Positions 1-24,873 of a stretch of DNA of 52,001 nucleotides are shown here, in pieces (the first letter of the stretch is position 1; every line of letters starts with the position of its first letter). The position numbers were made by a program, and so were the translations under genes. The notes below the pieces were generated by a model that worked only from the letters and a program-made list of their open reading frames with translations, was not told the origin of the DNA and did not search any database. The stretch is from a virus. The stretch spans positions 1 to 52,001 of IMG/VR virus record IMGVR_UViG_3300047382_000707; one strand, given 5' to 3'.

Positions 1-974
1 AATAAACATAGTGAGTTAATTGTCATCATTACTGTTAAAGAACGAAATATATCTTTATTTACTCCTTCAAGAAACGCAACCATATGACTTCTCCATTCAG
101 GATAAATTAACCCATCTCTAATATATTCAGCATGAGCTCCGAATGATTCATTAGATGTATATAAATCAAATTCTTTAATTGGTAACTGATATGATGCATC
201 AATTAATCGTTGTATTCTTTTAAAGTTACCACCTAAATTGGAATTTACAGCCAATCTAAGTTTTTCAGATGGGTAATCTTTCATGGTATCCAAGAAACTC
301 CAAAAGTTTGGAGATGCACATGGTTCACCACCTGTAATTCTTATTTCTTCCAATCCTCCTTCGATTAATTCTGGCCACCATTTTAAGAAAGCATCTACAT
401 ATGGATTTTGTTCATTGTATTTACCATTAGCATCCGCCCATTCTCCATTGTTTTGATATGCTCCAGCTGATACGGATTTAAACTTTTGATAAGGTCCGAA
501 CTTATCAATATCCTTACCCCATGTAGTTGAGTATCCTGCGTTACAATATGAACAAGCAAAATTACAAACTCTATCAAAGGAAGCTTCGATGGTTTTTGGA
601 ATAATATCAGCATCCCATGGAACATCTTTTATAGCTGCAATATCTTCTTCTTTATAGATTCTTGATTTATAAATTCTATCAGCGATATTATCTCTACCAA
701 TATCCTCAATCTTCCAACAATAAGAACATTCGGCTGGTCTTTTACCTTCTAACATCATCTTTCTCTGTCTTTTTGAGAAATCTGTATTGTGTAATTCACT
801 CGGTCTATCTTTTAACTTTTCTACATCAATTGGATGTGGTAAAGGTAAATGACACGAGTTTTTAAAACCATGTCCTAAGTGTAAAGATACATTGTACCAT
901 TTTGCTGCACAAAAACTTGGTGATATACTATTGAGATTTTCATCTCTCCATTTTCTTAAACTTTCTGTTGACAT
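1..974 (-). CDS. Radical SAM protein with N-terminal twitch-like cluster domain (partial)
   Basis: The reading frame opens at the ATG ending at 974 and stays open to the window edge, so about 324 N-terminal residues are visible and the C-terminus is missing. The radical SAM signature CNFACSYC (Cys137, Cys141, Cys144) would bind the 4Fe-4S cluster that cleaves S-adenosylmethionine. Before it lies a Cys-rich segment (Cys22, Cys41, Cys83, Cys86, with a CSYCW motif) that resembles the auxiliary-cluster twitch segment seen in phage radical SAM proteins. A TGGEP-type segment (RITGGEP) follows the cluster. It is clearly paralogous to the radical SAM protein at 1726-3144. The substrate is unknown. 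Its place beside lectin-like and glycosyltransferase genes suggests sugar or peptide modification, but this is inference. Confidence 0.9.
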   Translation of the reverse strand, partial: MSTESLRKWRDENLNSISPSFCAAKWYNVSLHLGHGFKNSCHLPLPHPIDVEKLKDRPSELHNTDFSKRQRKMMLEGKRPAECSYCWKIEDIGRDNIADRIYKSRIYKEEDIAAIKDVPWDADIIPKTIEASFDRVCNFACSYCNAGYSTTWGKDIDKFGPYQKFKSVSAGAYQNNGEWADANGKYNEQNPYVDAFLKWWPELIEGGLEEIRITGGEPCASPNFWSFLDTMKDYPSEKLRLAVNSNLGGNFKRIQRLIDASYQLPIKEFDLYTSNESFGAHAEYIRDGLIYPEWRSHMVAFLEGVNKDIFRSLTVMMTINSLCL

Positions 975-982
975 ATTATTTC

Positions 983-1729
983 CTATTTTATAAATTCACT
1001 TGGTACTTGTTCTATAAAAAACGCGTTTTCTGAATTATCATATATGATTCCTTGATTATTAATTGTATTGAAATCATAATTAAATATAATATTTTTATAT
1101 TCATCCAACTTATTTAAATTATTAACATCAGTTTCATATACTTTTTTCACAATATCAATATCTGTTATATCTTCGATAAAGAATAATGTATCTATATCAA
1201 CAGAACCATGATATCTATGTTCAGGTACTTCTGTACCAGGATTGCCTGTACCCAAGTATAACCCTTCGGTTCGGTAATCATCGATTAAGTTTTTATCAAA
1301 ATCAATTTCACCTATTTTTTCAAAATTTTTATATATGATGAACTCATCATTATTTCTAATAATTGTTATAACAACACCCTTAGATAATTCATCGTATTTC
1401 ACACCATGAAATGGTAAATACTTAAAGTCATCACCTGCAACTTTTGTTGTGGCTTCCGTCCAAAACTCTAAAGCTAAAGTATCAGCTTCTTGGTTGTATG
1501 TTAATCCAAAGTTTTTACCAGGTTTTCCAAATATACAGAAGATGTTATCAGATTCCAAATCTTTATCCAACTTAAAATCAATATTAATTGAATAATTTAG
1601 TTGGTGAAATAAATTAGATATTTTATCTGATTCACTTTTGTTAAATTCTGTAACATATTGATGGTCTTTGTGTTCTCCCAAATCCCATTCATATTTTATC
1701 CAATATGGTTGTTTATAATTTATTATCAT
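983..1729 (-). CDS. Stand-alone LamG/concanavalin A-like lectin domain protein
   Basis: The 248 residues are largely beta-strand-like, and the C-terminal half has a LamG-type layout: a strand with an 'LGTGNPG' turn, then HGSVDIDTLFF, then a YDFNT...YDNSEN segment. The last part closely resembles the end of the LamG-like insert in the GT7 protein at 3141-4589 (HYDFENG...DKSDN). No catalytic motif is seen. It overlaps the upstream radical SAM gene by four bases (ATGA), so the two are probably translationally coupled, and another radical SAM gene follows. LamG domains typically bind carbohydrate or protein ligands. It may present or recognise the substrate of its neighbours (inference). Confidence 0.7.
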   Translation of the reverse strand: MIINYKQPYWIKYEWDLGEHKDHQYVTEFNKSESDKISNLFHQLNYSINIDFKLDKDLESDNIFCIFGKPGKNFGLTYNQEADTLALEFWTEATTKVAGDDFKYLPFHGVKYDELSKGVVITIIRNNDEFIIYKNFEKIGEIDFDKNLIDDYRTEGLYLGTGNPGTEVPEHRYHGSVDIDTLFFIEDITDIDIVKKVYETDVNNLNKLDEYKNIIFNYDFNTINNQGIIYDNSENAFFIEQVPSEFIK

Positions 1730-3144
1730 TTTATATTTTTTATAAATTCACTCATTTCAGGATAAGTTTTTTCACAATCTAATCCTCTTCTTTGTTTATA
1801 ATCTGCAATGTAGTGTTTAAACTTTTTCTTACCTAAAGAAAATTCTACATCTGATTTATCATCTTCAATAAAAATATCTTTTATTCTTGATATCTTTTCT
1901 ATTTCTTTTAATGAAAATCCACTATCTGTTGGCTCTTGTAATTGATATGAATTCAAGCTTCTATACGATGAAAAAAACTTCATATACTTTTCTAACTTAT
2001 CAAAGTAAGAAATATCTAAATATCCTTTTAGTAATCTAAAACTTAAAAAATCTGGATATCTTAAGTATGATGTATCTAATATTAAAGGAGAATTCCAATA
2101 TCTTTTTGTATTAAAATGTTTTACTTTGTAATCATATATTTTTCTTAATAATTTTTCATAATTAAATGGTGAAAAAATATTGAAAGTAGACATAACAACA
2201 ATAGTCATTTCAGGTATCTCTGTTAGTACTTTATCGATGTTATCAAATAATTGTTTAAAATCCAATCCAAATCTAATATATTCAGCTTGTTCACCATAGG
2301 TATCAACTGATGTATATAATATAAATTCTTTTACTCTTTTTTCTTTGATAATTACTTTAGCCTTTTCTATAAATTTATCTATAAGTTTATCATCAACACA
2401 AAGATTACTATTTACTGATAATTTTAAGTTGGTATTAGGTTCATCGGTTTCAATTATTTCATCTAAAACTTTAAACGTATCTTTTGAAAGTAATGGTTCA
2501 CCACCAGTTATTCTAAATGTATCCATACTTTGGTAAAGTTCTGGCCACCATTTCCAAAACGCCTCTACATATGGATTATGTTCTGTTTTTTTATATGGTA
2601 TTGTATCTTCTTTTTCTAATGTTGTAAGTGAATTAAAATTATCACCTGTGGAAAACTCTCCATGTTTTCTCATTTCCTCAACCCATTTTGAAGAATATGA
2701 AGGCCCACAATATCCACACTTAAAATTACAAGTATTAGAAAAAGATACTTCTACATATTTTGGTAAGTAATCATCTCTCCATTGAGAATTCTTTATTTCA
2801 TTAAAATATGGTTTTGACCACGATTCTTCTGATTTAAAAATTCTATCAGAAAAAGAATTTGAGTTATCTTCAACTTTCCAACAATATCCACATTCCTTTG
2901 GTCGTTTATCTTCCAACATTTCTTTTCTAGCTCTTTTCTTATGAGAACTATTATGTAACGCTGTATGATTTCTTTTTATTTCTCGTAACCCAATCTTATG
3001 TGGAGCTGGATGGTGACATGAATGTGTAGTACCATCGTGTAAATGCATAGTAACTTGTGTCCATTTTGCTAAACAAAACCCACACCCAACAGAATCTAAC
3101 TTCTGTTTCATTTCTTTAAAGTTATTACCTATTACTTTACTCAT
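1726..3144 (-). CDS. Radical SAM protein with N-terminal twitch-like cluster domain
   Basis: This complete 472-residue paralogue of the protein at 1-974 has radical SAM cluster cysteines in CNFKCGYC (Cys139, Cys143, Cys146). An N-terminal Cys-rich segment (Cys24, Cys43, Cys85, Cys88 in CGYCW) probably binds a second iron-sulfur cluster. The RITGGEP segment, typical of the SAM-binding glycine-rich strand, follows the cluster domain. The C-terminal third has no recognised motif. Both ends overlap neighbours by four bases, with the LamG protein downstream and a GT7-LamG protein upstream, so it sits inside a tightly coupled operon. The reaction is unknown. Peptide side-chain modification, sugar epimerisation and dehydration are all possible for this superfamily. 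Confidence 0.92.
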   Translation of the reverse strand: MSKVIGNNFKEMKQKLDSVGCGFCLAKWTQVTMHLHDGTTHSCHHPAPHKIGLREIKRNHTALHNSSHKKRARKEMLEDKRPKECGYCWKVEDNSNSFSDRIFKSEESWSKPYFNEIKNSQWRDDYLPKYVEVSFSNTCNFKCGYCGPSYSSKWVEEMRKHGEFSTGDNFNSLTTLEKEDTIPYKKTEHNPYVEAFWKWWPELYQSMDTFRITGGEPLLSKDTFKVLDEIIETDEPNTNLKLSVNSNLCVDDKLIDKFIEKAKVIIKEKRVKEFILYTSVDTYGEQAEYIRFGLDFKQLFDNIDKVLTEIPEMTIVVMSTFNIFSPFNYEKLLRKIYDYKVKHFNTKRYWNSPLILDTSYLRYPDFLSFRLLKGYLDISYFDKLEKYMKFFSSYRSLNSYQLQEPTDSGFSLKEIEKISRIKDIFIEDDKSDVEFSLGKKKFKHYIADYKQRRGLDCEKTYPEMSEFIKNIK

Positions 3145-4589
3145 AGTTTAATATTAATAAATTTAGCTTTGGGTGTAATCTCTTCTACACTTACTAATTC
3201 GTATTTTAAAGAATTCATACCATCTGATTTATAATCCCACTTTCCTTGTTGCATTTGATGTACAAATCTTTTTTCATTTCTTGCAGTTGTTTCACCTTTT
3301 GCCCACACATCTTTTCCATGTTCGTTCTTTACCAAACCTTCATCTTTATGTTCTAAACAAAACATTCTACCAGGTACTCTATGTGGTACTGTTGTGTGTG
3401 GTATTTGTATTTCTTCTGTTTTAAATTCACAATCATGACTGATACCATCATTATCATTATCTGATTTATCCATCACTAAACCATTTTCAAAATCATAATG
3501 AAGGATTAAACCATCATTTTCAACTTCATTATGTATATTTGATACTTCTTCAGATGTTAAGGCTCTATTCCACATTCTAACATCTGCAATATCTCCACTA
3601 AACCACTTTGAAGGTTCATCATCGGGTACTGATGTTGTTGTTCCTAAGTAATAACTTTTATTACCATATCGTTTTAACATACCTTCAAATTCTTGTGGTG
3701 AATGTGTTCCTGTTCCCCATCTTGCATCAGATTCTTTTCCATTCATATAAAAATGAATTTTGTTTTCATCTACAACAAGAGTTATCCACGCCCATCTGTT
3801 TTCATAATTCTTCATCCATTGATAGATGTGATTTCTTTGATTATTCCAAAGTTGTGCTGTGTAAGTTCTTGAATTGTTGTAACTTAATCCATAATCATAA
3901 CCTGGTCTACGAAGTATTGGATACTCACAAAATCTTCTTTCCATATCACCAACTAACCAAATAGGAACTTTTTCTTCTTGTTGATGTGCTCTAACTAATA
4001 CTGAGATTGTATGTGAACGAGAAGTCAAGTTTCTTAATTGTCTTGTACATGGTATTTCTATATGTGAACCTTTACCATTAAACGAGAGAAAAGATTGGGG
4101 TTTCGTTGTATAATCCATAACATCTGTTTTTGTGTAACCTTCGAGGACACACCTCCAAAAGAGGTCATCATCCTCCATGCCCCAATCCCAATAATCATTA
4201 CTATAACCATTTGTTCTCTCTACTTGTTCTTTGGAAAATAAAATAGCTCCTCCAAAATATTCTTCGTACTTTAAATCATAGTTCATTTGTGAAATTTGTG
4301 TAGCGATATGTCTTGGGTTTTCTTTTGGAAAACTATAATCAGCTCCCCCACCTTGTTCAGGTATCATATCTATATCATGCCACACAACATAATCACACCC
4401 TTCCTTAAATGCCCACTCAGCAGCGATATTTTTTGTTGCTCCTCTATTGAACAACTTATCATCTACCTGATGACCAAAATAAATTTGATAATCAATTCCC
4501 CTATCCTCAAGGTACTTACCAATTCTTGGTATAAATTCTTTAAGGTGTGCTTCTCTGTTTCTATATGGTACACAAACTCCTAACTTCAT
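3141..4589 (-). CDS. GT7 galactosyltransferase-like enzyme with inserted LamG domain (copy A)
   Basis: Residues 1-160 match the beta-1,4-galactosyltransferase (GT7) catalytic core: VPYRNRE near the start, FNRG 47-50, the metal-binding HDIDM 71-75, YFGG 111-114 and WDWGMEDDD 134-142. About 200 residues of LamG-like lectin sequence follow (about 170-385), with typical HFYMNG and FSGDIADVRMWNRAL segments. After the insert the C-terminal GT7 signature resumes (DGMNSLKY, near residue 460). The lectin domain is therefore placed inside the enzyme, not at an end. The expected reaction is transfer of a hexose from a UDP-sugar to a glycan in the infected cell. Four-base overlaps couple it to the radical SAM gene downstream and nearly abut the cytidylyltransferase gene upstream. 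Donor and acceptor cannot be read from sequence. Confidence 0.88.
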   Translation of the reverse strand: MKLGVCVPYRNREAHLKEFIPRIGKYLEDRGIDYQIYFGHQVDDKLFNRGATKNIAAEWAFKEGCDYVVWHDIDMIPEQGGGADYSFPKENPRHIATQISQMNYDLKYEEYFGGAILFSKEQVERTNGYSNDYWDWGMEDDDLFWRCVLEGYTKTDVMDYTTKPQSFLSFNGKGSHIEIPCTRQLRNLTSRSHTISVLVRAHQQEEKVPIWLVGDMERRFCEYPILRRPGYDYGLSYNNSRTYTAQLWNNQRNHIYQWMKNYENRWAWITLVVDENKIHFYMNGKESDARWGTGTHSPQEFEGMLKRYGNKSYYLGTTTSVPDDEPSKWFSGDIADVRMWNRALTSEEVSNIHNEVENDGLILHYDFENGLVMDKSDNDNDGISHDCEFKTEEIQIPHTTVPHRVPGRMFCLEHKDEGLVKNEHGKDVWAKGETTARNEKRFVHQMQQGKWDYKSDGMNSLKYELVSVEEITPKAKFINIKL

Positions 4590-4996
4590 AGTGTATCTGC
4601 AATTAGTTTTTTAAACTTGGTTGTTGACCAACCATGGTCTCTGTTTAGATAATGAACGGGTATATCTAATTCAAAACCAGTATATGTTTTGCCTCTATAA
4701 TCATCCCCTAAAAATCTGATATCTGGCTCTAAATCTTTTATTAATTTAACCAACTCATCTTCATATGTGTAGTATGCTATTGAATCTATAAATTTTATTG
4801 AACTTAAAACCTCTGTTCTTTCTTCTTTAGTAAGAATTGGTTTTAATTTTTCTGGTCTTTCGATTGATGGGTCTGTATGAAGAAGAATTATGAATTGTTT
4901 ACAATATGATTTGCATTCTTTAAACATCTTTATATAACCAGGATGGATTACATCAAAATTTCCTGCAATTATACCTCTGTTATACATACTCATCAT
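4586..4996 (-). CDS. Cytidylyltransferase-like nucleotidyltransferase
   Basis: The 136-residue protein has the small nucleotidyltransferase fold typical of glycerol-3-phosphate cytidylyltransferases. GNFDVIHPGY (12-21) is the GxFDxxHxGH nucleotide-binding motif with tyrosine replacing the last histidine. LGDDYRG and the C-terminal GWSTTKF correspond to the family's GDD and IS(T/S)T motifs. It would activate a sugar- or alcohol-phosphate with CTP (or ATP) to give a nucleotide-linked donor. It lies between two GT7-LamG genes with four-base overlaps, so it may supply a donor or a glycan-linked group for them (inference). The HPGY substitution is unusual and might reduce activity. Methionines 1, 2 and 4 are possible starts; the first is used because it overlaps the upstream stop. 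Confidence 0.85.
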   Translation of the reverse strand: MMSMYNRGIIAGNFDVIHPGYIKMFKECKSYCKQFIILLHTDPSIERPEKLKPILTKEERTEVLSSIKFIDSIAYYTYEDELVKLIKDLEPDIRFLGDDYRGKTYTGFELDIPVHYLNRDHGWSTTKFKKLIADTL

Positions 4997-6444
4997 AGTT
5001 CTATTAGTACTTTAGTAACTAAGTTAGTTTCTTCTTTTTTAATTTCTTTATATCTGAGAGTGTTTAATCCATCTATTCTAAAATCATCAATTCCTTCTCT
5101 AACATCGTTATAGTATTTTAATTGATTTTTTCTTGTTTCTTTATGAATCCATTTATTACCAACCGAAGAGTTGCTTTTATGTTTAAGTGATACAAATCGA
5201 GAATTTCTTCTATGTGGTTTTGGCAAAAATGTTTTAAATGATTCTCTACTCTTATATAAATATATATTATTCAAATAAACATCATATTTGCCACCCAAGT
5301 CTATACAAGTAGTGGATGATGATAATTGTGGTAATATTTGTGTATATAAAAACTCACTTGATTTAAAATTACCAAAGTTTCTAAGTTTTGGTTTTGTTGG
5401 GTTTTCATATATCTCAACTATTTCATCATCAGTAAGTGCAATATCGTATATCTCGATACCCGATATTAATCCATAAAAGAAGTCTTTATTTGTTGGTTTA
5501 CCATTTCCAATCCCAACATATATTTCATTAGAAGGTAATTGTAGTATCTCATTGTTCATTTTTTCAACACTAACCAATTCACCATTCATATAAAACTTTA
5601 AGGTATCTGAATTTTCATAAACCATTGTTAAATGAACCCACCTATCACCAACAATATCAGTTGATATTGAATGTGATTTTTTATCAACATCATATGCTTG
5701 ACAGAAGAATCTTCTAAATGAGTTATAAAACAATCCTATGTTATAACCAGGAATTGATAATATGGGAAATTCATCATAATCCTTATTAACACTCAATTTT
5801 ATGTTTTCAGGTTTAACCATTACAGATATTGTAAACTCATCTTCCAATAAGTGTAACTTTTTATCTGTACTTAATTTTATAAAGGATTCATTTCCATCAA
5901 ATTTAAATGATTCTATTTCTTGAATAGTATCGCTACCATTTGAATCCATATCTAATTGTAGATTTGAATCTAAACATCTGATAAGTAAATCATCATCTTC
6001 AAATCCCCATCCCCAATATTCGTTTGAGAATCCATTGATAGTTTTGAAATCTTCTTTTGTAAACATTGTTACTCCACCAAAGTAATCAAAAAATGTGGTT
6101 TCGTAATCGTGTTCTTGTAAGTGTGTTGCTAAATGTAGAGGTTTATCTGAATACGAATAATCTACATCTTCAGGCAACATATCAACATCGTGAAATACAA
6201 AATAATCGCACCCTTTATCTAAGGCATACTTATATCCTGCATTCAGAAGTTTACCTCTATTAAAAGGGTTATCATCTGCCTGTTCAATGATGAAGATTTC
6301 GTAATCAATATCCTTAATATAATCTTTCATATGAGATAAGAACCTTTTCAGTTGTTGTTCTCTATCTCTATATGGAACTATTATACCAAGTTTATGATTT
6401 ACTTTCTTCTCCTTGAGTTTCTGTATTCTCTTGGATTCTTTCAC
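4993..6444 (-). CDS. GT7 galactosyltransferase-like enzyme with inserted LamG domain (copy B)
   Basis: This 483-residue paralogue of copy A has IVPYRDRE 22-29, FNRG 61-64, HDVDM 85-89, YFGG 121-124 and WGWGFEDDD 144-152, the closest of the three to the classical WGWGxEDDD motif. A LamG-like domain occupies about residues 175-375, with LKFYMNG and FYGLISGIEIYDIAL segments, and the C-terminal GT7 signature DGLNTLRY follows near residue 460. The start codon is GTG (bases 6444-6442), with AAAGAGG four bases upstream. No ATG lies between it and the first catalytic motif, so the GTG is accepted although it overlaps the upstream small gene by 53 bases. The function is probably glycan elongation; the substrate is unknown. 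Confidence 0.88.
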   Translation of the reverse strand: MKESKRIQKLKEKKVNHKLGIIVPYRDREQQLKRFLSHMKDYIKDIDYEIFIIEQADDNPFNRGKLLNAGYKYALDKGCDYFVFHDVDMLPEDVDYSYSDKPLHLATHLQEHDYETTFFDYFGGVTMFTKEDFKTINGFSNEYWGWGFEDDDLLIRCLDSNLQLDMDSNGSDTIQEIESFKFDGNESFIKLSTDKKLHLLEDEFTISVMVKPENIKLSVNKDYDEFPILSIPGYNIGLFYNSFRRFFCQAYDVDKKSHSISTDIVGDRWVHLTMVYENSDTLKFYMNGELVSVEKMNNEILQLPSNEIYVGIGNGKPTNKDFFYGLISGIEIYDIALTDDEIVEIYENPTKPKLRNFGNFKSSEFLYTQILPQLSSSTTCIDLGGKYDVYLNNIYLYKSRESFKTFLPKPHRRNSRFVSLKHKSNSSVGNKWIHKETRKNQLKYYNDVREGIDDFRIDGLNTLRYKEIKKEETNLVTKVLIEL

Positions 6445-6658
6445 TACCTCTTTCTGGTCTATTTGTTGTTCCTACTGTTTTTGTTTTAGCGATTTGGTAG
6501 AACTCATTCAAGTACCACTCCAATCTTTCTTGCCACATATCAGCATCTAATTCATACAACCAATCGTTGATGTCTCCAATTGAACCCGCAATAGATTCAA
6601 GGGCCTTTACACCTCTTTCTTCAAGAGATTTAACCTTCGTTGTCTCGTTCTTTGCCAT
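6392..6658 (-). CDS. Small protein of unknown function
   Basis: I do not recognise this 88-residue protein. It is hydrophilic, with a predicted helical N-terminal half containing two tryptophans (WLYELDADMWQERLEW) and a low-complexity, charged, Thr/Glu-rich tail. It has no signal peptide or membrane segment. It overlaps the next gene by 53 bases and the previous one by 29, so it belongs to the GT7-LamG operon. The overlap with the GTG-started GT7 gene is long for this genome and hints that the C-terminal tail is under little constraint. A small adaptor is possible but unproven. Confidence 0.6.
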   Translation of the reverse strand: MAKNETTKVKSLEERGVKALESIAGSIGDINDWLYELDADMWQERLEWYLNEFYQIAKTKTVGTTNRPERGSERIQENTETQGEESKS

Positions 6659-7187
6659 AATTGTAATTTAGTTTTTTGTTATAAATTAATTCTTCTTTTA
6701 GTTTTTCAAATATGAAACCTTCAAGACCTTCGTTATCGATTGGAAAGGATGCCTCATCAATCCAATCTTGTAATCTTTTAGGCTCCCATTTTAAGTTCTC
6801 CAACTCATCTTCTATTTTTTGAGGCTCCCATTGTTTAGTATCTATTTCTGCATTTATTTCTTGTAATCTATATTCTAACTTTTCTTTCTCTACCGATAAA
6901 TCATCTAAACGAAATTTTATATCATCTCGTTTTACAGTTTTCATTTTAATATCTTCATTGATATCATCAATATCTGTTTGTTTATCATAGTATCTTGAAA
7001 AGAATCTACCAATATTTGCTGTTCTTGAGTTTTTATTTTGTAAGAACAATGTTTCAACTATTAATATAACTTTTAAAAATATAGATTTATCATCAGAACT
7101 TGGTTCTGTTAAATCTTTCAAGTCATTATCAATCTTTTCAAGAGTTTTAACAACTTTTTCGTTATGTAACAATTCTAATAAGTTCAT
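6630..7187 (-). CDS. Coiled-coil protein of unknown function
   Basis: The 185-residue protein has a helical N-terminus and a clear coiled coil at about residues 80-140 (heptad-like Leu/Ile/Glu/Lys runs). Two copies of a WEPx(K/R)(I/L) motif occur about 15 residues apart inside it. No enzyme motif, signal peptide or membrane segment is visible. It sits between two GT7-LamG genes and overlaps both neighbours by about 26-29 bases, which argues for coupled expression. It could be a scaffold or oligomerisation partner for the glycosyltransferases; this is inference from position only. Confidence 0.65.
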   Translation of the reverse strand: MNLLELLHNEKVVKTLEKIDNDLKDLTEPSSDDKSIFLKVILIVETLFLQNKNSRTANIGRFFSRYYDKQTDIDDINEDIKMKTVKRDDIKFRLDDLSVEKEKLEYRLQEINAEIDTKQWEPQKIEDELENLKWEPKRLQDWIDEASFPIDNEGLEGFIFEKLKEELIYNKKLNYNYGKERDNEG

Positions 7188-8622
7188 AATTTTTTTTATT
7201 TTGTATATCTAATATACTGTAATTTAATGTACTCAATCCTATGGATTTATAATCTAATTTATTTGGAATCACATCGTGAAAAAATATATCAGAATTTTCT
7301 GTAATATCCGGGTCGTATTCGTAATATCTTTTTATTATATCTGTATCGTTTTTGTGAACTAAAGATTTATATTCAGAATCTAATCTTATTGGCAGATATA
7401 ATTCATTTGGTGTATATGTTAATTTATCTGATTGTAAACTTCCATAAAACTTTAAGTGATTTTTGTAAGAACCACTATCTAATAAAATTGATTGTTTATA
7501 TAAAGAATTATATTTTAAGTTTATTACAGGTGATAACCCAAATTTATTATGTATATCATCTAAAGATGAATTACCTCTATTATATAATATGTTTATAATT
7601 TCATTACTTAAGTAAGAATCAAACGCTAAAATATTTGATATCATTATAGATGTGGAATCATCTGATATTTTTATATTATTTTTAGAGTAATCATATATCT
7701 CAAAACTATCTTTTAATTTTATCTCTTTTGTTTTATCGTTTATAGATAACTTTAAAATATTTTCTTTACTATCATATGAATATACACAATGATTCCATCT
7801 GTTTCTTGAGTAAGATAATATAATTTCTTCGTGATTATCTTTATTATCCCAAATTTGTGCTATTATTTCATTTCCCCTACTCAAAAACAATCCACTATCA
7901 CATCCTTCAAATACAAATAAGTTTTTTTTCATTTTACGCTCAAAATCATCATTGAACCAAAATGAAATACTAAACGAATCTTTAACCATTTTTTTAGTAA
8001 GTGGATTTAGTAATCCATATATGTAATCACTTTCAGAAAATGTATTGTATTCCATTTGTTGAATTCGTTTCTCATTACAAACATTTACATTTTCAATCCT
8101 ATATGGTAGAACATCTAACTCATCATAGTTAGAATATACATTATTTAAATCATATTTTTTTTCTAAGTAAGCACCACTTCTTTCTAATCTGTAAAGTAAA
8201 TCTAAATCTTCAAAACCATAACCCCAATATTCATTTGAATATCCGTTTGCTGTTTCGAAATCTTCTCTACTCATTAGAATAACACCACCAAAGTATTGTG
8301 GGTAAGGTAATTCACCACCATGTGCCTCAACATTACTTGCTAAATGAGTTGGTGATTCAGGATAACCATAATCACACTCATCATTCATTGGTAACATATC
8401 GATATCGTGAAAAGCAAAGTAAGTGTATTCTTCTCCAACTTCTTTTGATGCTATGTTACACAGTTTTCCATAGTTGAATGGTCTATCATCTGTTTGTTCG
8501 GCAATAAAAATAGTGTATTCGATTCCTTTATCTTTGAGGAACTCGTGCATATGAGGAACAAAGACATCTAAGTGGTCTTGTCTATCTCTATACGGAACTA
8601 TTATCGCTAACTTATCTTTCAT
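7162..8622 (-). CDS. GT7 galactosyltransferase-like enzyme with inserted LamG-like domain (copy C, divergent)
   Basis: This third 486-residue paralogue has VPYRDRQ 9-15, FNYG 49-52 (Arg of FNRG replaced by Tyr), HDIDM 72-76, YFGG 110-113 and WGYGFEDLD 133-141. In the last motif the central Asp of the EDDD triplet is Leu. The insert (about 195-395) is a more diverged LamG-like beta domain (CDSGLFL, ILKLSIND, ISNILAFDSYL). The C-terminal signature survives as IGLSTLNY near residue 463. The metal-binding HDID is intact, but the EDLD change may alter acceptor binding or catalysis. Copy C is the first of the three to be transcribed. It is separated by a single base from the GT2 gene upstream, consistent with one operon. 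Confidence 0.83.
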   Translation of the reverse strand: MKDKLAIIVPYRDRQDHLDVFVPHMHEFLKDKGIEYTIFIAEQTDDRPFNYGKLCNIASKEVGEEYTYFAFHDIDMLPMNDECDYGYPESPTHLASNVEAHGGELPYPQYFGGVILMSREDFETANGYSNEYWGYGFEDLDLLYRLERSGAYLEKKYDLNNVYSNYDELDVLPYRIENVNVCNEKRIQQMEYNTFSESDYIYGLLNPLTKKMVKDSFSISFWFNDDFERKMKKNLFVFEGCDSGLFLSRGNEIIAQIWDNKDNHEEIILSYSRNRWNHCVYSYDSKENILKLSINDKTKEIKLKDSFEIYDYSKNNIKISDDSTSIMISNILAFDSYLSNEIINILYNRGNSSLDDIHNKFGLSPVINLKYNSLYKQSILLDSGSYKNHLKFYGSLQSDKLTYTPNELYLPIRLDSEYKSLVHKNDTDIIKRYYEYDPDITENSDIFFHDVIPNKLDYKSIGLSTLNYSILDIQNKKNYELIRIVT

Positions 8623-9465
8623 TTAGATTTTTACTATAACATCTGAGAGTTCTTTCCACTTCATATAATCAAAGTATCCACTATCTCCCATTCTTTCAAA
8701 CATAAACTCAGGATTATTCACATCTATTTTCCAATCAAATACTTGAATGGCTCTGTACATTTTTTTGTACTCTTTCCAAAAGGAATAATCTTTTTTTGTT
8801 TCTGAAACTTCTTTTAATCTTTTTAAAACAGTTGAATCCCATTTAAAATGATGTACTTGGATTAATCCTTTTTCAATAGGATATCTTTTAGGATGATTCC
8901 ATCCTCGTTCTCTCCAAGTATCAGTATCACCAATCACAGCAAAGTGTTGACCAGGTGTTACATCCACAGAACCTTTCATTACACAACATTTATTTGGCAT
9001 CGCTCCACTCATTGGATATCTAAAAAATCCAGCAAATGGAAACGATTCCCAAATATTAGTTTCTTTTGTTACCAAAGGAAACTCACCATCCTCTCCTATC
9101 CTATCGAGGAATCCTCCTGTGATAAACTCCCACCCATTCTCATCACATTCTGTAATAAGTTCTCTTAAGGGTTTTGGGTAAACATGAAGTTCATCATCGT
9201 CCGAAACCACCCACCACTCATCGGGTTTGGTTTGCTTTACTTCGTTGTATAATTGAGTTACTCTTTCCCAATTAAATTTTTTTTCTGTTACTACTTTATA
9301 TGGTTTGATACCAAGATTAAGTACCTCTTCTAATATTCCATCAAGTGAGTGTTGTCTATAAACAACAACATAAATATCATCAACGATATCTTTGTAGTGG
9401 TTTATCATATGTGAAAGAAGTGTAGTGTTGTGCCCAACAACTGTAACCAAATTTATTTTCTGCAT
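8623..9465 (-). CDS. Glycosyltransferase family 2-like protein
   Basis: The 280-residue protein starts with an alternating hydrophobic strand and helix (MQKINLVTVVGHN) and contains VVSDDDELH at residues 87-94. The Asp triplet (89-91) is in the position of the metal and nucleotide-sugar binding motif of GT-A enzymes of the Glyco_tranf_2_4 kind. The VGHNTTLLSHMINHY segment near the start is typical of this group. No membrane segment is seen, so it is probably cytoplasmic. It overlaps the methyltransferase gene upstream by 13 bases and abuts GT7 copy C downstream. It would add a sugar in the same pathway; donor and acceptor are unknown. Confidence 0.82.
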   Translation of the reverse strand: MQKINLVTVVGHNTTLLSHMINHYKDIVDDIYVVVYRQHSLDGILEEVLNLGIKPYKVVTEKKFNWERVTQLYNEVKQTKPDEWWVVSDDDELHVYPKPLRELITECDENGWEFITGGFLDRIGEDGEFPLVTKETNIWESFPFAGFFRYPMSGAMPNKCCVMKGSVDVTPGQHFAVIGDTDTWRERGWNHPKRYPIEKGLIQVHHFKWDSTVLKRLKEVSETKKDYSFWKEYKKMYRAIQVFDWKIDVNNPEFMFERMGDSGYFDYMKWKELSDVIVKI

Positions 9466-10235
9466 CTTTGAAGAATTGTCAAACCAGTAGAACTCGGTTT
9501 AGTCTTAAATATACCGTTATTAAAAAAGTTGAAAATTTCCCAATCTTTATTTGATTTCAATTCTTCAATTAATTTTGAGGGGCCATTTGTAATATTGTCT
9601 TGGTCATCTTTAGATTTAACATCTTCGGTTACAATTAAATCTTTTTCAAAAGATACATCAGTATCATGTATTGATATAATTCCATGTGGAGATAATATCT
9701 TTGAATAAAGTGTGAAATCATTATGAACATCCTCGTATGAATGTCCAGCATCTATATGTAGATAATCTATCTTGATATCTTCTTTAACAAAAAAGTTATA
9801 ATATGCGTTTTCAGTTGTATCTAATATAATTCTTGGAAAAAAGTTTTTTCTTAAAAAAGAGTTTTCATCTTTCCAATCAACATTCCCACCCACACCATTA
9901 TCAGCATCAACAAGATAAGTACAACCTATATCTCCCCAATTATAATCTCTATTTCCTTCAAATATTTGTGAATCATATAAATCAACCCTTGCTTGTGTCA
10001 TGATTCTTGGAATGAATCCACCACCACTACCCAAACAAACACAAACTTTTGCTCTCATGTAATGAATTATAGAATAAATTAACAACCCATCACCAAGAGT
10101 TAAGTCAGTTGCTCCATGAGTCCATCTATAAGGAACAGGTTTGTGAACATGAAACTCATTACCATTTACATCAGTTTGAGGTATTTGATTATTCGTTAAA
10201 TGTTCACGCAAAAAATCGAGATTGAATAGTGTCAT
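9453..10235 (-). CDS. Class I SAM-dependent methyltransferase (Methyltransf_24-like)
   Basis: The 260 residues contain a Rossmann-type glycine-rich loop (LGSGGGF, about 68-74). Later comes the pattern HIDAGHSYEDV (160-170), followed by a strand ending in HDTD (190-193). This IDxxHxYxxV...HD(T/D) arrangement is characteristic of the Methyltransf_24 and cephalosporin-hydroxylase-like families, which often methylate sugars. It is the first gene of the glycan operon. Its leader contains a phage late-promoter candidate (10356-10365) about 120 bases upstream. Methylation of a sugar made by the downstream transferases is plausible; no acceptor can be named. Confidence 0.8.
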   Translation of the reverse strand: MTLFNLDFLREHLTNNQIPQTDVNGNEFHVHKPVPYRWTHGATDLTLGDGLLIYSIIHYMRAKVCVCLGSGGGFIPRIMTQARVDLYDSQIFEGNRDYNWGDIGCTYLVDADNGVGGNVDWKDENSFLRKNFFPRIILDTTENAYYNFFVKEDIKIDYLHIDAGHSYEDVHNDFTLYSKILSPHGIISIHDTDVSFEKDLIVTEDVKSKDDQDNITNGPSKLIEELKSNKDWEIFNFFNNGIFKTKPSSTGLTILQRCRK

Positions 10236-11379: not shown

Positions 11380-14300
11380 TTATCCACAATATAGATATCC
11401 GTACACGCCTTCCATTTTACCATTAGAATCCCACGAAGATGATTCCATAGATTTTGCTACTGTATAAGAACATTGTGATTGTCTTTCTTCGTAAATTGGA
11501 GTAGAATCTCCATTAAATCCTGTTACTACCCACTCTGATGGTTGTTTCATTAAATAACCAGGAGTATCTGAAGAACAAAGTAAATCACCAGGTACAACAT
11601 CACCACCTTGATTACACATTTTAAATCCTGTTAAACTAAAGTAAGAACCGGATATATTCCATTCAATACTATCCCCAAGAGATGCTACTCTCCACATTTC
11701 TTTTGAACCAGTTTCATTATTTGTTAAATAATTACCAAATGAATCCAAATATGAAGCGGATACCATTTCTTCTGATGCTGTAAAAGGAGTGTATCCATCC
11801 TCTACGGAACCAGTTATTAGGTTTGTTATTTTTAATTCATATTTTTCCCAAAGAATACCAACCACCGATGTATCTTTTGCTGATGATACTTTTATAAGTT
11901 CATTATTTGAATCTACTTTTACTAAATCACCTCTTGAAATATTTTCCGATATTCTCTTTTTATATGCGTGTCCTAATGTTACAACTGCGTCTAATTTTGC
12001 AGACATATTATGTGAAAGTATTCCATCTGAAATATAATTATGCACTACATCTAATTCATAATTCCAAACCTCAACTTCTTCATCAAAAGTTTCTATACTT
12101 TTTATTTTATCAATAACTAATCTTCCATCAGCATAAACATACAACTCACCACCAACTCCGAGTTTATCAACAGAAATTTCACAATTAGGATAATCAGGAT
12201 GATATAGTAAATGTGAATTAGAACATTTTAACTTTTTACCTAATTCTGTTTCTATCTTACTCCATCCTTGTACTTTATTAGTAATAATTTCATCAATAGA
12301 TGACCATCCCCATTCTTTGGTTTCAAAGTTAAATATTTTGATTACATCATCTTCTTTTGTATCTTCTACATTTATCTCACCTCTTTTAGAAATTATTTTA
12401 GTACCAGGTAATACACAGAAACCGTCTCGAGTATCAATCGCTGAGAAGTTGGTAGATATAGTATTAAATCGAGTCCCGATTCCAGATGATGAGCCTTTTA
12501 TTCTAAAATCATTATTTAAAGAAAACGTACCATCGGTATCAAATGCAAACGCAGTTGAGAAACTACCCTTTTGAGTTCCACTACCAATTTTTGCAGCAGT
12601 TTTAATAAATATTTCAGATGAATCAATATCAAATAAATTAGATAAAGCTCTTGGTGTTGCAACACCATCTTTCTTTAGTTTAGTTTTTGTGGTTTCTTGT
12701 ACAAAGTTACCATCAGTATCAATATAAAATCCATTTGCTGATATAAAACCACTACTTCCAATTGTTATAGCACCTGCTGATGTAAAGTTTCCACTGCTTC
12801 CTTTTGTACCAGTGTGTATCGAATTTGAATCAATTGTCCAACCACCAATTGTTGCACCTGTTGTAACTGATAAGATACCGGTTGTACCTGTAAAACTCAA
12901 TGGAGCGGCAGCTCCACTATTTGTACCTGCAAGAAAAAAGTTACCACTACTATCTAAATAAGATTTCCATCCAGCTGGTGCAGTTGCATTATAGAATCCC
13001 ATTTTATCCTCACCTAAATGTAATCCACTAACAGATGGTGTACCAACATTTGACAAGTTATTTGGATTAAATGTAGTTGGTACTGTTGGTATGTTCAAGT
13101 TATCAACATCTTGTTGAGCACCTTGAGCGGCCGATAGAGCAGTGGCGGCACTTCCTGTTGCCGCATCTGCAACTGATTTTGCTTGAGCAATTGCATCCGC
13201 GGTATCACCAGAAGTTATAGTAATTGCACCACTAATTGTTGCTCCAGTTGCTGTAAGTGCACCATCATTGGATACCTTAAATGGTGCATCCGCATAATTA
13301 GCATCTCCGATATGTAAGTTACCACTCGAATCAACTTTTAATATATCATCACCAGAACCTACTGATAAACTACCTTCAAAAGTACCACCAGCTGCAGATA
13401 AATCACCTGAGAATGTACCACCACCATTTACTGTAAGGTTTGTACCATCCCACAATAACGAATTTGTTGATGATTTTAAGGATAGTTTAGCAACATCACT
13501 ATTATATCCTAAGAATATACCAGTGCCATTATAAGCAGATGTACCGATTCCAATGTATGGATTTGCATAATCATTACTTGCATCTGCATTTAATGCGATT
13601 ACAGGTTCAGTTCCATTTGGAGATGTACCAATATTAACTGTTTTGTTAGCGTAAACATCTTGAGCAAAAAGTACATCGGTAGCAACCGATGCAAAAGATG
13701 TCATTGTTTCAAAGTAAGTTCCCCAACCAGTATCACCAGGACATCCTGTTGTTGATTTTGCTACACCATCGGCCGCATCTTTTGTAATATAATACGAACT
13801 ACCAACCTTAGTAACTTGTCTTGTGTTCTCATCACTTGTCCAAGTAAATGTACTTGCTAAATCAGAACAATCTCCAACGAATGTAATACCAGGACCAGCC
13901 GCTCCATCATCTCCTTGAACTGCAACACCAACATTAACCGTAATTGTTTTCGATGTAAATTCTCTACCTTCTGAGTTTGTGTAACTTAAAGTTACAACAG
14001 AAGTTGTTCCATTGGCATCACTTGGTGTGGTTGGTGTAATAGTTCCATCATTATTATTTGTACCATTTGTTACACCAGTAATTTTAAATTTATTTGCAGT
14101 GACCGTACCTGTCGTATGTGTATAATTACTACCACCTTCGTTAACAATTATTGTTACAGCAGATGGTGTTCCAACTGATGAAAATGCTGAATTTGAATCA
14201 ACTGTTTGTGATTGTGGATTTGCAGATATCGCAACAACTGGTGTTGCTTTTTTAGATTTAGAAAGTGTAAATTTAATAGTTGTTGTACCAGTAGTTCCTT

Positions 14301-17300
14301 CGTTATCTTTAAATCCAATAAAAGCAGTACCAGTTGCACTATCTCCACTAAAACCTGTAATATCAATATTCTCATCCGATGGTGTTGTATCTGAAACACT
14401 TACACCAGTTACATTAGTAATTTTATATTGACCAGCACTAAGAGTTCCTTGATTATATGTTAAAGCACTATTACCTTCAAACCCATCAACTCTTACATCT
14501 TGTATTGTACCAGTTAAAGTACCATTTGAATTAGCAGCAATTGTTTGAGCGGCAGGAGTAACTGAGAAATTTATACCTGGTTGAGCCACTCTAACTCTTG
14601 ATACTGTTGCTATCACATCTTTAGTACCAAGTGTTCCTTCACTATCTTGGTATGAAACAGTTACAGTTGCAGTACCGGTATCAGATGTCATATCAGTTGC
14701 AGTTGATGTAAATGCTACTGTGTTTGATAATGGAGAATCATCACCATCCAATCCATTTGAAAATGAAACATTAGTGATTTCTTCAAATCTACTCGTACCA
14801 CCCTCAAGTGCCCTTACTGTTAAAGTTTGTGGAGTTGCCGAACCACTACCACGCGAATTTGCTTCTATTGTTTGTCCTGTTGGAGAAACCGAAACCTCAA
14901 CATTTGGTCTTGCAGCTCTTGTTCTCGAAATATTTGCAGTAATGTTTTCAGTAGATGTATCCCCTGCAGAATCTGTATATGTTACAGCAAATGTTATAGT
15001 TTCTGTATCAGAAGTCATATCAGATGCCGTATCTGTAAATGTTAAGTTATTACTTGAAATCGTTCCACCTATACCTCCACTATATGAAACTGTCATAGAA
15101 TCAAAAACATCAGTACTTCCTTGTTTTGCACTTACACTAATAGTTTGTGGTGATTCACTTCCACTACCCAAAGAATTTGCAGTTATAGTTTGAGCCTGTG
15201 GAGTAAGAGTAACTAATACGGGAGTTTCACCTTCTCGTGCTCTTGTAACAATTGCAGTTATAGTTTTTGTTACAGAACTTCCTTCACTATTTGTTGTTGT
15301 AACTGGTATCGTAATTGTACCAGTATCAGATGTCATATCAGATGCATCTGAAGTAAACGATATTGTTGTAAATGGAGAAGTTGGTGTATTTACACTTAAT
15401 CCACCAGTTGTTGTTATTGTTCCAATTGAGGATATTGTTCTTGTTGTTCCTCCTTCAGATACCACAATTGATAAATTAGATGGGGTTGCTGAACCACTAC
15501 CAACAGAGTTTGCAGTTATAGTTTGAGATGAAGGATATACTTGTATCTCAACATTTGGTGCAGAAGCATTTGTTTTAGAAAGTGAAACGGTATCACTAAC
15601 CTCTCTACTTGTTCCTTCACTATCTGTTACTGTAGCAGTTAATCCTACTTGAGTTGAGTTTGTATTATTTGGTAATTCACCATAAGATAAACTTAATCCA
15701 CTCCTTGTTACTAAAGGATTTCCACTTACATCGTTAGAACCAGATGTTATTGTTAAATCGATATTAGCTGAAGAAAATGATGTAAGAGAACCTGTATAGA
15801 ATTCTCGAATAGCCATTGTAGATGAATCAAATGAACTTAATTGTGCACCCGTTGATTTAGCATCTACATTCTGTGTTTTATTTGTAGTATCAAATACAAT
15901 AGAAGGGGATGCTATTCTGTTTTTAGTATAGTTTACTTTTTTCTGAAAAGATTGTGAAGTACTATTATCACCAGCAAGATATTTTACACTCAGTATCAAA
16001 GAACCACTATCTGCAGATAATGAGGAAATACCATATTCATTGGTAGTATAGGATGAATATGCCTCAGTCACATTTGTTGCTGTTGCGGATACAATATCAA
16101 ATCTGTTTGGTGAAGTTAGTCCATCACTATGTTGTATCTCTTTATTTGCAATTCTAACTTCTACCTCACCATCACCACTTGCAAAATTATCAAGAACCGC
16201 TCCTTGTCCATTTGCTCTAAATGTAGTTGAATCGTTTGTAAGAGTTATAGATACACCATCAAAGTTAACTACTTTTGAAATCGTAATTTCATCTGATTGT
16301 TTATTACCAAATACATCCGAACCAGTAAATGAATAAGTTACTTCATCAAATGAGTTATCGGAAAAAGAAGCTGAGAATGTAGTTGCGGTTAAAGTATATG
16401 TATCTATACCATTAACAGTATCTACATAATTTAATTTAGGTTTATTACTACCACTATTTATTTCTATTGGTGTAATTAAAGATGCTAAGTTTTTTCTCTG
16501 AGCTCTAACTGTAATCGATTGACCAGATGGCTTTGGTTCTAATGCAGTTGGTTCATATGTAAATTGATTTGCGTTTGAAGTTACAATAAGTTGAGGTGCA
16601 TTATCACCATCTTCTAATCTATAAACAGTTTCAAACTCTTGTAAGTTTTCTAATGAAGCGGTATAAATAACAGAACCAACAAAAGGAGTTGGTGAATTAT
16701 CAGTTCTTGAACCAGTAAAATTATTTATAGTAATTAACCCTCCAGCTGGATTTACACCTGTTAGTAAACCAGGATATTGTGTATAATCATTTGGATTTAA
16801 ATAATTACCATCAACATCAAATGCAGATGATTCAAACAATATTGAACCCGTTAAGTTATTTTGGGTTATCTTAAGTTGTATTTGTTGATTCTTTGGATTT
16901 TGTACCGAACCACTTGAAAATCTAAATGCATTTCTATCGGATTCAAATGTTAATAATTTTGCACTTGTAGGAAAATCATTACCACCATTAAATACACCAA
17001 CAGCAGAAACATCAACAGGTATATAATTGTTATTGATATCATAAAACTCAAATCTAAAATCAAATGTTTCAGATGCAGTTTTTCTTGGAATATCTTGAAT
17101 TAAAGTAAATTCATCTGGTGAAAATGATGATTCTTGTGCATTTCTTAAAGATACATTTGAAATGTACCAATCAGAACCTTGAACCTCGAATACTAATTTT
17201 GCATCACCAGTATTTTGAGATATAATATTTTCAGATATATTTTGTCTTGCTCTATAAATAGCAGAACCACTTATTGTTGTAAAATCTTGTGTAAAGTTTG

Positions 17301-24151: not shown

Positions 24152-24873
24152 ATATCTATATGTCTTTCTGATTGTGGTCCTTTTAGAACATGAGAAAAAT
24201 GTTTCATTAAATAATCGTAATAAGGACTATTAACATCAGTAATTTCATCATATTTTTGTTTTAGTGGGTTTTCATCTGGTAACATCGTTTGTATAGTAGA
24301 GAAATCAGTATCTGCCCAAATGGGGAATGGTCTATATTCTTCTAACCATGGATATGTTACTCTTTCAATCCATACATCATTTGCAGATAAAGTTCTTTTC
24401 TTTACATCTTCACAGAATATTTTAGCTGCATTTGGTTTAATTGCATATGCATGATGACCTAAGAAGTTAACTTGATTTGGCCAATTTAATCCATCTTTTG
24501 GTTCTTCATAAATCATATGATGAGGTCTAATGTAACTCGGTCTACCAAAGTTAACACACATATTGAAATCTATATCAGGTATATTACTTTTGAATATTGC
24601 ATCATGTTCTAATATTAATATAGGTTCATTTAACTTTATACACTCTTTCCACAACAAATAATGAGAAGCAAAACAAGCACCAACATTATCTGGTCTTTCG
24701 TAATTATGAAACGTATTTTCATATGGTAGAATCTCTTTCCACTCAGTTGGTTTAATTGCTTCAAATATTTCAATTGATTCTTTATATCCTACATCTTTTG
24801 CACTTTGGATTGTTTGTTTTACAGACCTAACTGAATCTTCATTACTACTTATTCTGATTATAAATGTTTTCAC
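24148..24873 (-). CDS. Glycosyltransferase family 25-like protein
   Basis: The 241-residue protein matches the GT25 (LPS beta-1,4-galactosyltransferase/procollagen galactosyltransferase) pattern. GACFASHYLLW at residues 65-75 corresponds to the conserved GxxxSH segment, and LILEHDAIF (86-94) to the acidic donor-binding motif EDD, here EHD. The downstream FLGHHAYAI and DVWIERVT segments also fit. It probably transfers a hexose to a glycan or hydroxylated acceptor. It overlaps oxygenase genes by four bases on both sides, so the three enzymes are made together. The EHD variant keeps the key acidic residues. Confidence 0.83.
   Translation of the reverse strand: MKTFIIRISSNEDSVRSVKQTIQSAKDVGYKESIEIFEAIKPTEWKEILPYENTFHNYERPDNVGACFASHYLLWKECIKLNEPILILEHDAIFKSNIPDIDFNMCVNFGRPSYIRPHHMIYEEPKDGLNWPNQVNFLGHHAYAIKPNAAKIFCEDVKKRTLSANDVWIERVTYPWLEEYRPFPIWADTDFSTIQTMLPDENPLKQKYDEITDVNSPYYDYLMKHFSHVLKGPQSERHIDI

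Follow-up and report, generated by a model that had tools for sequence, protein, structure and literature searches.

How an enzyme that transfers sugars comes to carry a lectin-like domain within its own catalytic fold, and what that domain would do there, is the question raised by three genes in a 52,001-base stretch of DNA from a virus record (IMGVR_UViG_3300047382_000707, positions 1 to 52,001), referred to below as the window. The genes, named here G1, G2 and G3, each encode a protein with a core of glycosyltransferase family 7 (GT7) and a LamG domain placed inside it. By sequence and by predicted fold these cores are GT7, and their arrangement differs from that of the animal and bacterial GT7 proteins examined. 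The GT7-LamG proteins most likely form part of a phage glycan-building system. The three genes and their parts are as follows.

3141-4589, minus strand: G1, an intact open reading frame (ORF) of 482 amino acids
4125..4589, minus strand: N-terminal GT7 part of G1, residues 1-155 (HDIDM, YFGG, WDWGMEDDD), from Pfam GT7N and GT7C matches and the model against B4GalT1
3399..4103, minus strand: inserted LamG jelly roll of G1, residues 163-397, from Laminin_G_3 (5e-14) and structure alignment
3144..3398, minus strand: C-terminal GT7 part of G1, residues 398-482 (His414, DGMNSLKY), from the model, the junction alignment and the equivalence of the histidine through a bacterial homologue
4993-6444, minus strand: G2, an intact ORF of 483 amino acids
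5941..6444, minus strand: N-terminal GT7 part of G2 (HDVDM, YFGG, WGWGFEDDD), from Pfam GT7N and GT7C, with the GTG start as listed (predicted)
5224..5934, minus strand: predicted inserted LamG of G2, residues about 171-407, from Laminin_G_3 (8.2e-18)
4996..5223, minus strand: C-terminal GT7 part of G2 (LKH, IDGLNTLRY), from alignments
7162-8622, minus strand: G3, an intact ORF of 486 amino acids
8167..8622, minus strand: N-terminal GT7 part of G3 (HDIDM, YFGG, WGYGFEDLD), from Pfam GT7N and GT7C
7405..8061, minus strand: inserted LamG-like jelly roll of G3, residues 188-406, from structure alignment, with Laminin_G_3 below its cut-off
7165..7404, minus strand: C-terminal GT7 part of G3 (LVHK, IGLSTLNY), from the model against B4GalT1

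The original prediction, made from the sequence, had named three GT7 proteins at these positions on this strand, and Pfam bears it out. Matches above the cut-offs were obtained for G1, G2 and G3, respectively, with Glyco_transf_7N (E = 5.1e-15, 9.7e-24 and 5.1e-23) and with Glyco_transf_7C (E = 1.1e-19, 1e-20 and 1.8e-17). Laminin_G_3 matched with E = 5e-14, 8.2e-18 and 3.4e-4, that is, with 53.2, 65.4 and 21.2 bits against a cut-off of 27.6, which leaves G3 below it. In all three proteins, the matches follow in the order GT7N, GT7C and LamG, and a C-terminal GT7 signature, also foreseen, is present as SDGMNSLKY in G1, IDGLNTLRY in G2 and SIGLSTLNY in G3. The copies are indeed diverged, since the multiple alignment gives G2 34% and G3 28% identity with G1. 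In a phmmer comparison of G1 with B4GalT1, residues 2-152 match strongly; a second stretch at 438-470, around DGMNSLKY, lies in the correct order with 2.0 bits, which is not significant alone. A search of NCBIfam gave no match for G1.

The survey of relatives was based on pattern scans of viral contigs, whose reach is limited to close relatives. The G1 query gave 217 relatives, of which the best 80 were kept; scans with G2 and G3 gave 9 and 12 loci. All 80 loci, and the 44 records discussed below, were thus chosen for holding G1. Altogether, 172 distinct viral sequences were gathered, including the three of the window and a few fragments shorter than 400 amino acids. From these, 96 representatives (80% identity, at least 400 amino acids) form the alignment A2, and 37 (60% identity) were used for trees. 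Assigned to the nearest paralogue of the window, the 96 fall into 31 G1-type, 47 G2-type and 18 G3-type proteins. All 96 match GT7N, all 96 match GT7C and 91 match Laminin_G_3 (E<=0.01). The insert spans 211-267 residues in them, with a median of 248, so that the length of about 200 first given for it was too short, and a value nearer 250 applies. A profile built from the inserted LamG domains recognizes that of G2 at 1.3e-72, G2 itself being among the source sequences.

Structure prediction addresses whether the LamG domain lies within the enzyme or is fused to its end. AlphaFold2 models were built with family alignments for G1 (mean pLDDT 93.6, pTM 0.87) and G3 (mean pLDDT 91.9, pTM 0.81), and structures were aligned by VIA-align and also by Foldseek. 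With VIA-align, residues 1..482 of G1 align to residues 180..398 of bovine B4GalT1 (1tvy_A) with Z 27.9 over 212 residues at a root-mean-square deviation (rmsd) of 1.8, and residues 1..486 of G3 align to 178..398 with Z 26.9 over 213 residues at an rmsd of 1.9. At least 50 of the aligned residues in G1, and at least 26 in G3, lie past the start of LamG (near 163 and 188, respectively). Because both alignments run on past LamG and stop only at the final residue, the GT-A fold is completed by the C-terminal part in the models of G1 and G3. The LamG region of G1 resembles the LamG domain of PAPP-A (Z 21.6), BACOVA_03559 (Z 20.6) and pentraxins (Z about 17-19), and that of G3 resembles PAPP-A LamG (Z 20.4) and BACOVA_03559 (Z 20.1); the PAPP-A and pentraxin matches, with Z about 17-22, confirm a jelly-roll fold for both modelled inserts. 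The test named in advance, namely that the residues after LamG complete the GT-A fold around a jelly-roll middle domain, has therefore come out in favor of an internal insertion. A terminal fusion, considered as an alternative, is ruled out for the two modelled proteins because both flanks of LamG align to a single B4GalT domain.

Foldseek mostly aligned only about 150 residues of the models, as a local aligner meets a large insert. Its jelly-roll matches also included neurotoxin receptor-binding and related jelly rolls and dimethylformamidase, which are read as sharing the fold only. Among the top 50 rows from a library of viral structures, many of them without a name, none was recognized as spanning both domains, and several long alignments (>340 columns) have rmsd values of 15-19 Å.

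The point of insertion could be placed with the help of GT7 proteins that lack the insert. When genomes of bacteria and archaea were scanned with a pattern, 23 GT7 proteins without interruption turned up, along with one fragment (rows L108 to L131), with sources in Proteobacteria, Planctomycetota, Chitinophagaceae and Sulfurimonas; in addition, Glyco_transf_7C matched in 6 of 14 control genomes, in 5 of them above the cut-off. The statement that GT7 enzymes are mainly known from animals is, on these grounds, too narrow. For the junction alignment and the core tree, 17 of the 24 bacterial proteins were used, and 7 were omitted as near copies, proteins with long doubtful N-termini or the fragment. 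The uninterrupted protein L108 reads RCIKQGLTFKRRLGRYRCLDHKR across the junction, and G1 reads RCVLEGYTK, then the insert, then VPHRVPGRMFCLEHKD. The LDH of L108 aligns onto the IRH of bovine B4GalT1, the histidine of which we take to be a metal ligand. From this match and the alignment of the uninterrupted bacterial proteins, the LamG domain is placed after the helix that follows EDDD and before the stretch with the metal-ligand histidine and the mobile loop. By analogy, a mobile acceptor-site loop would directly follow this histidine in the viral proteins. In human beta4GalT7, such a loop is formed by residues 261-284, and its movement when the donor binds creates the acceptor site (PMC4367269).

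The history of the insert was approached with two trees. In the core tree, calculated without the insert, 37 viral proteins are separated from 17 bacterial ones by one branch (65/83), and a single change is found in 60% of 200 bootstrap trees; the root is not fixed and 8 bacterial rows have odd composition. A single insertion before the split of the paralogues is thereby favored, with moderate support. In the tree of inserts, those of G1, G2 and G3 each form a clade (100/100, 98/96 and 96/91), with two long rows flagged; this tree also took in 24 distinct non-GT7 proteins below E 1e-12, out of 68 LamG-profile matches, many of which represent the same gene in overlapping loci. As the inserts form clades by paralogue, the insert appears to stay with its core, and shuffling of LamG domains among paralogues is unsupported. 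The simplest reading of the trees is one insertion followed by duplication, after which insert and core would have been inherited together. Derivation of the insert from a virion protein of the phage itself is neither supported nor excluded: the inserted-LamG profile misses a 1923-residue ORF of the window, and phrog_8510 matches the LamG domains of G1 and G2.

The architecture is widespread among the viral contigs scanned. In 44 records of 28 to 289 kb, taken from the 80 contigs, 110 GT7C matches were found, and 107 of them lie in one cluster per record, with two copies in 25 records and three in 19; in record G010, the third copy lies some 8 kb away from the other two. The clustered reading frames are 431-514 amino acids long, which is enough for the insert, here judged by length. 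The remaining three matches lie away from the clusters in frames of 384-415 amino acids, one of them below the cut-off. When the 80 loci are taken with 5 kb flanks, some of which are ended by a contig edge, two GT7 genes are seen in 45, three in 30 and one in 5. A tblastn search of 50,697 GenBank phage records, a set that holds some metagenomic records and may omit the nearest kin of the window, gave no match for G1 at E 1e-5 or for G2 and G3 at E 0.1, and none for the uninterrupted bacterial protein L128 at E 1e-3. The same mode of search reaches distant proteins, such as Nol carbamoyltransferase in 145 records and terminase in 2753. A Nol-like carbamoyltransferase is also encoded in the window (46937-48640, minus strand) and has 29-32% identity with its counterparts in Pelagibacter and cyanobacterial phages among the rows listed.

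Inserted forms also occur on four contigs from bacterial and archaeal genomes (L105, L106, L107 and L112), while the fragment L130 is too short to judge. Since L105, L106 and L107 share neighbor genes with the viral cluster, and L112 has a relative of the gene beside G3, these contigs are probably viral. The GT7-LamG architecture was not found described in the literature searched, which covered few subscription papers and preprints; its absence from print is not shown by this.

Conservation of the catalytic residues points to active enzymes in two of the three types. D72, D74, W136, E139, D140 and H414 are kept in all 78 G1- and G2-type representatives, Y111 in 77 (one Y111F) and D141 in 76 (two D141N). 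All deviations fall within the G2 type (Y111 in 46 and D141 in 45 of 47), as the set is kept in 31 of 31 G1-type proteins. Accordingly, the GT7 active-site set, consisting of DxD, EDDD and the metal-ligand histidine, is complete in G1 and G2 of the window, and G3 has the fold without the full set. Tyr111 of G1 presumably corresponds to Y289 of B4GalT1, and GalT with the Y289L change accepts modified sugars (PMC8229434). By this analogy, a tyrosine at position 111 hints at galactose as the donor.

The G3-type proteins are different. D141 is present in none of the 18, being replaced by leucine in 12, isoleucine in 5 and valine in 1; E139 is kept in 8, D140 in 16, W136 in 5, Y111 in 15, H414 in 15 and D72 and D74 in 17 each. 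Of the catalytic motifs in the original prediction, HD(I/V)DM and YFGG are present in all three proteins and EDDD in G1 and G2; the variant letters of the last motif, which the prediction had noted, mean that WGYGFEDLD of G3 misses one acidic residue. In human beta4GalT7, the acceptor xylose is hydrogen-bonded by Asp228 and Asp229, the former of which has been suggested to act in catalysis (PMC4367269). D140 and D141 of the viral proteins were equated with these residues through the shared EDD motif. Since G3-type proteins have lost D141, and the equivalent acids contact the acceptor in beta4GalT7, G3 is probably either altered in acceptor handling or a non-catalytic partner.

The insert itself is conserved unevenly. 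With the representatives divided by motif into 31 G1, 41 G2 and a mixed group of 24 others, 76, 21 and 4 of 246 insert columns, respectively, are conserved at >=80%, and the corresponding numbers for the core are 144, 85 and 63 of 236. In the G1 type, 28 of the 76 conserved insert columns fall at 222-274, and a dense stretch at 221-242 is conserved in both G1 (16 columns) and G2 (10 columns). The pattern is suggestive of a functional face in these two types, for which binding, interdomain contact and folding are alike possible; the mixed group has little of it.

Comparison with known systems places the viral proteins more precisely. With the animal B4GalT enzymes (CAZy GT7; B4GalT1 and B4GalT7), they share the GT-A fold, DxD, YFGG, W..G.EDDD, the metal-ligand histidine and DG(L/M)NSL.Y, and the models align with Z 22-28 over about 190-214 residues. 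The animal enzymes have no insert, whereas the viral proteins carry about 250 residues, including LamG, before the metal-binding histidine. Unlike the animal B4GalT, the viral proteins have no stem, as their core starts at the N-terminus or within about 17 residues of it. The uninterrupted bacterial proteins share this core, with 33-45% identity to G1 in the N-terminal half, and the C-terminal motif, but have no LamG between EDDD and the histidine; the 17 ORFs are 233-431 amino acids long as called, the longer ones being N-terminally extended. The insert shares its fold with LamG, pentraxin and PAPP-A domains (Laminin_G_3; Z about 17-22) at 8-19% identity, differing from them in lying inside a glycosyltransferase. 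Glycosyltransferases usually bear lectin modules at their ends, as do GalNAc-T enzymes with a terminal ricin-type lectin, and the viral LamG, unlike these, lies between two parts of one GT-A domain. The sialidase of Vibrio cholerae (PF09264) has a similar layout, with a lectin-type domain inserted in a carbohydrate-active enzyme, although it is a hydrolase of unrelated catalytic fold; one of the 96 representatives matches PF09264, with E 0.004. In trans-sialidases, the lectin domain is not an insertion but comes after the catalytic domain, and the catalytic fold is different. Nevertheless, a precedent is offered by the trypanosomal trans-sialidase, in which the lectin-like domain is likewise coupled to the sugar-transfer enzyme and modulates it (PMC8865650).

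The genes surrounding G1-G3 in the window are listed below.

983..1729, minus strand: stand-alone LamG protein of the same type as the inserts (inserted-LamG profile E 7.1e-16 over residues 28-236; no Pfam match)
1726..3144, minus strand: radical SAM protein of the twitch domain type, adjoining G1 (NF033640, E 1e-93, above cut-off)
4586..4996, minus strand: nucleotidyltransferase between G2 and G1 (PF01467, 5.9e-11; TIGR02199, 3.9e-18, below cut-off)
8623..9465, minus strand: GT2-like glycosyltransferase adjoining G3 (PF13704, 3.8e-5, below cut-off)
9453..10235, minus strand: S-adenosylmethionine-dependent methyltransferase (PF13578, 2.3e-10)
3..974, minus strand: second radical SAM protein, running off the end of the window (PF04055, 1.9e-7)

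The shared strand and touching ends suggest that the G1-G3 cluster is an operon, and the identity of the neighbors suggests that it makes and transfers modified sugars. Several neighbors recur: the radical SAM cluster stands directly after the last GT7-LamG gene in 78 of 80 loci, the GT2-like cluster before the first one in 69, and the methyltransferase cluster is present in 58. A stand-alone LamG-type gene occurs in 65 loci by cluster or profile, and in 51 by the inserted-LamG profile alone at E<1e-5. The nucleotidyltransferase, which resembles heptose-1-phosphate adenylyltransferase or glycerol-3-phosphate cytidylyltransferase, belongs to a cluster seen in 20 loci, and clusters of nucleoside diphosphate (NDP)-sugar epimerases and RmlC-type proteins are seen in 49 and 36. 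Beside the sugar epimerases, some relatives also carry a gene for a thiamine-diphosphate E1-type dehydrogenase (L052:10147-10779; cluster in 14 of 80 loci). Between G3 and G2, the window encodes a 185-residue protein (6630-7187, minus strand) without a Pfam match, the cluster of which is found in 7 of 80 loci.

As for the virus, G1, G2 and G3 are all 100% identical to proteins of a contig of 81,208 bases, IMGVR_UViG_3300017710_002137, which on this basis is taken to be the same virus. This contig carries, beyond the part shared with the window, a T4-type large terminase that shares 55-56% identity with the terminases of Flavobacterium phage immuto and of Microcystis phage Mel-JY01, and 32% with the one of Rhodothermus phage RM378. 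Together with the baseplate wedge genes and the SbcC-like gene of the window, this terminase identifies the virus, by gene content, as a large T4-related tailed phage. A host among Bacteroidota is possible, given the terminase of immuto and the presence of the same genes on two contigs binned as Flavobacteriales. On the other side, the Microcystis phage terminase is equally close, and other such contigs are binned as Gammaproteobacteria and Flavobacteriaceae; bins can be wrong. Elsewhere in the window, 24870-25400 (minus strand) has a weak match to 2-oxoglutarate-Fe(II) oxygenases (E 0.0022, below cut-off). Shine–Dalgarno-like motifs precede 10 of 35 listed starts, a count made without a chance control and from which nothing is concluded.

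In the mechanism that we propose, G1 and G2 would be active metal-dependent transferases, probably using UDP-galactose or a similar sugar. The LamG domain of each would hold the acceptor, a glycan or glycoprotein, and offer it to the adjoining active site. Such a grip near the acceptor site is plausible, as the sequence order puts LamG just before the metal-binding histidine and near the mobile loop. On the same grounds, the original idea that the enzyme might recognize a polymer already present and lengthen it is plausible too. G1 and G2 might work in turn on one acceptor, G3 would be a partner with altered or lost catalysis, and the separate LamG protein would bind the same or a similar ligand. 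Leaving the target aside, this enzyme mechanism as a whole may hold or fail with equal chance. A more elaborate form, in which active G1 and G2, a non-catalytic G3 and the free lectin would clamp and build one glycan that also receives radical-SAM and methyl modifications, is rather unlikely; for the role of G3 in it, ChPF, the partner of chondroitin synthase, provides a model. The product would most likely decorate the virion of the phage and less likely the host surface, a step that is the weakest of all and about evenly balanced. Several observations weigh against the proposal. For the virion target, the one indication is the presence of a fibre-like ORF close to the gene cluster of this window, and for the choice of donor it is one tyrosine, placed by B4GalT numbering. 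The insert is much less conserved outside G1, with 21 columns in G2 and 4 in the mixed group, which makes one shared ligand doubtful. LamG domains often bind protein instead of sugar, and phrog_8510, annotated as 'virion structural protein', matches the LamG domains of G1 (7.4e-6) and G2 (4.7e-11). Of the 80 loci, 15 showed no stand-alone LamG, some of them being cut by a contig end, and the count of 65 includes 11 cluster members without a match to the inserted-LamG profile. Finally, in the contig of the window itself (L004), neither sugar-epimerase cluster is found among the genes of the 5 kb that follow G1. The fibre-like ORF (11380-18585, minus strand; 2401 amino acids) contains, near its C-terminal end, an intein- or Hint-like segment (Intein_splicing E 3e-4, below cut-off) that, by eye, starts at a cysteine and ends in HN followed by methionine; this segment may cleave instead of splice, since methionine leaves no usual splicing nucleophile.

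The same phrog_8510 matches count in favor of the main rival, in which LamG is an assembly module that binds a protein (another LamG, the radical SAM protein, the methyltransferase or a virion protein) and so joins the enzymes or attaches them to the virion. The cluster itself contains a stand-alone LamG of the same type, LamG-type proteins are frequent among the viral structure matches, and the fold matches include PAPP-A and pentraxins, which oligomerize. A tether, however, needs no insertion beside a mobile loop, as a terminal fusion would serve, and the 1923-residue ORF, with its weak Pfam LamG match, is not matched by the inserted-LamG profile at E 0.01; this explanation is considered somewhat unlikely. 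Less probable still is that LamG, without a ligand of its own, merely replaces a short loop as a structural cap or lid that steadies the mobile loop. Its location just before the metal-binding histidine and that loop, which in beta4GalT7 moves on donor binding to create the acceptor site (PMC4367269), would fit such a role. However, many LamG residues are kept in the G1 type, though partly perhaps for the fold or for contact with the core, and the free LamG copy would be left without a role. A different question is whether the proposed enzymes act on the surface of the host cell, for instance as a barrier to superinfection, instead of on the virion. NDP-sugar epimerases, RmlC-type genes and nucleotidyltransferases, which occur in envelope polysaccharide pathways, recur near GT7-LamG genes, but in this window the genes lie near the large fibre-like ORF and in the same record as the baseplate genes; a host-surface target is given a lesser, though real, chance. 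A last alternative, that the genes are decayed or chimeric and have no function, or that assembly produced an artefact, would agree with the loss of catalytic-motif residues in the G3 type. Yet 107 clustered copies with open frames of 431-514 amino acids in 44 records, and a catalytic set nearly complete in 78 G1- and G2-type proteins across divergent records, rule this out for G1 and G2 and make it extremely improbable as an overall account.

A LamG domain that lies inside a GT-A fold before the acceptor-site loop, and is kept across widely diverged phage proteins, amounts to a natural experiment in building the choice of acceptor into a glycosyltransferase. The uninterrupted bacterial relatives, with their natural short linker, provide a direct control for the role of LamG. 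As the family comes from uncultured viral contigs and is absent from the GenBank phage records searched, it constitutes an unexplored supply of transferases that may have a grip on the acceptor built in. The arrangement is a hint that a virus may select in an unusual manner what it decorates with sugar.

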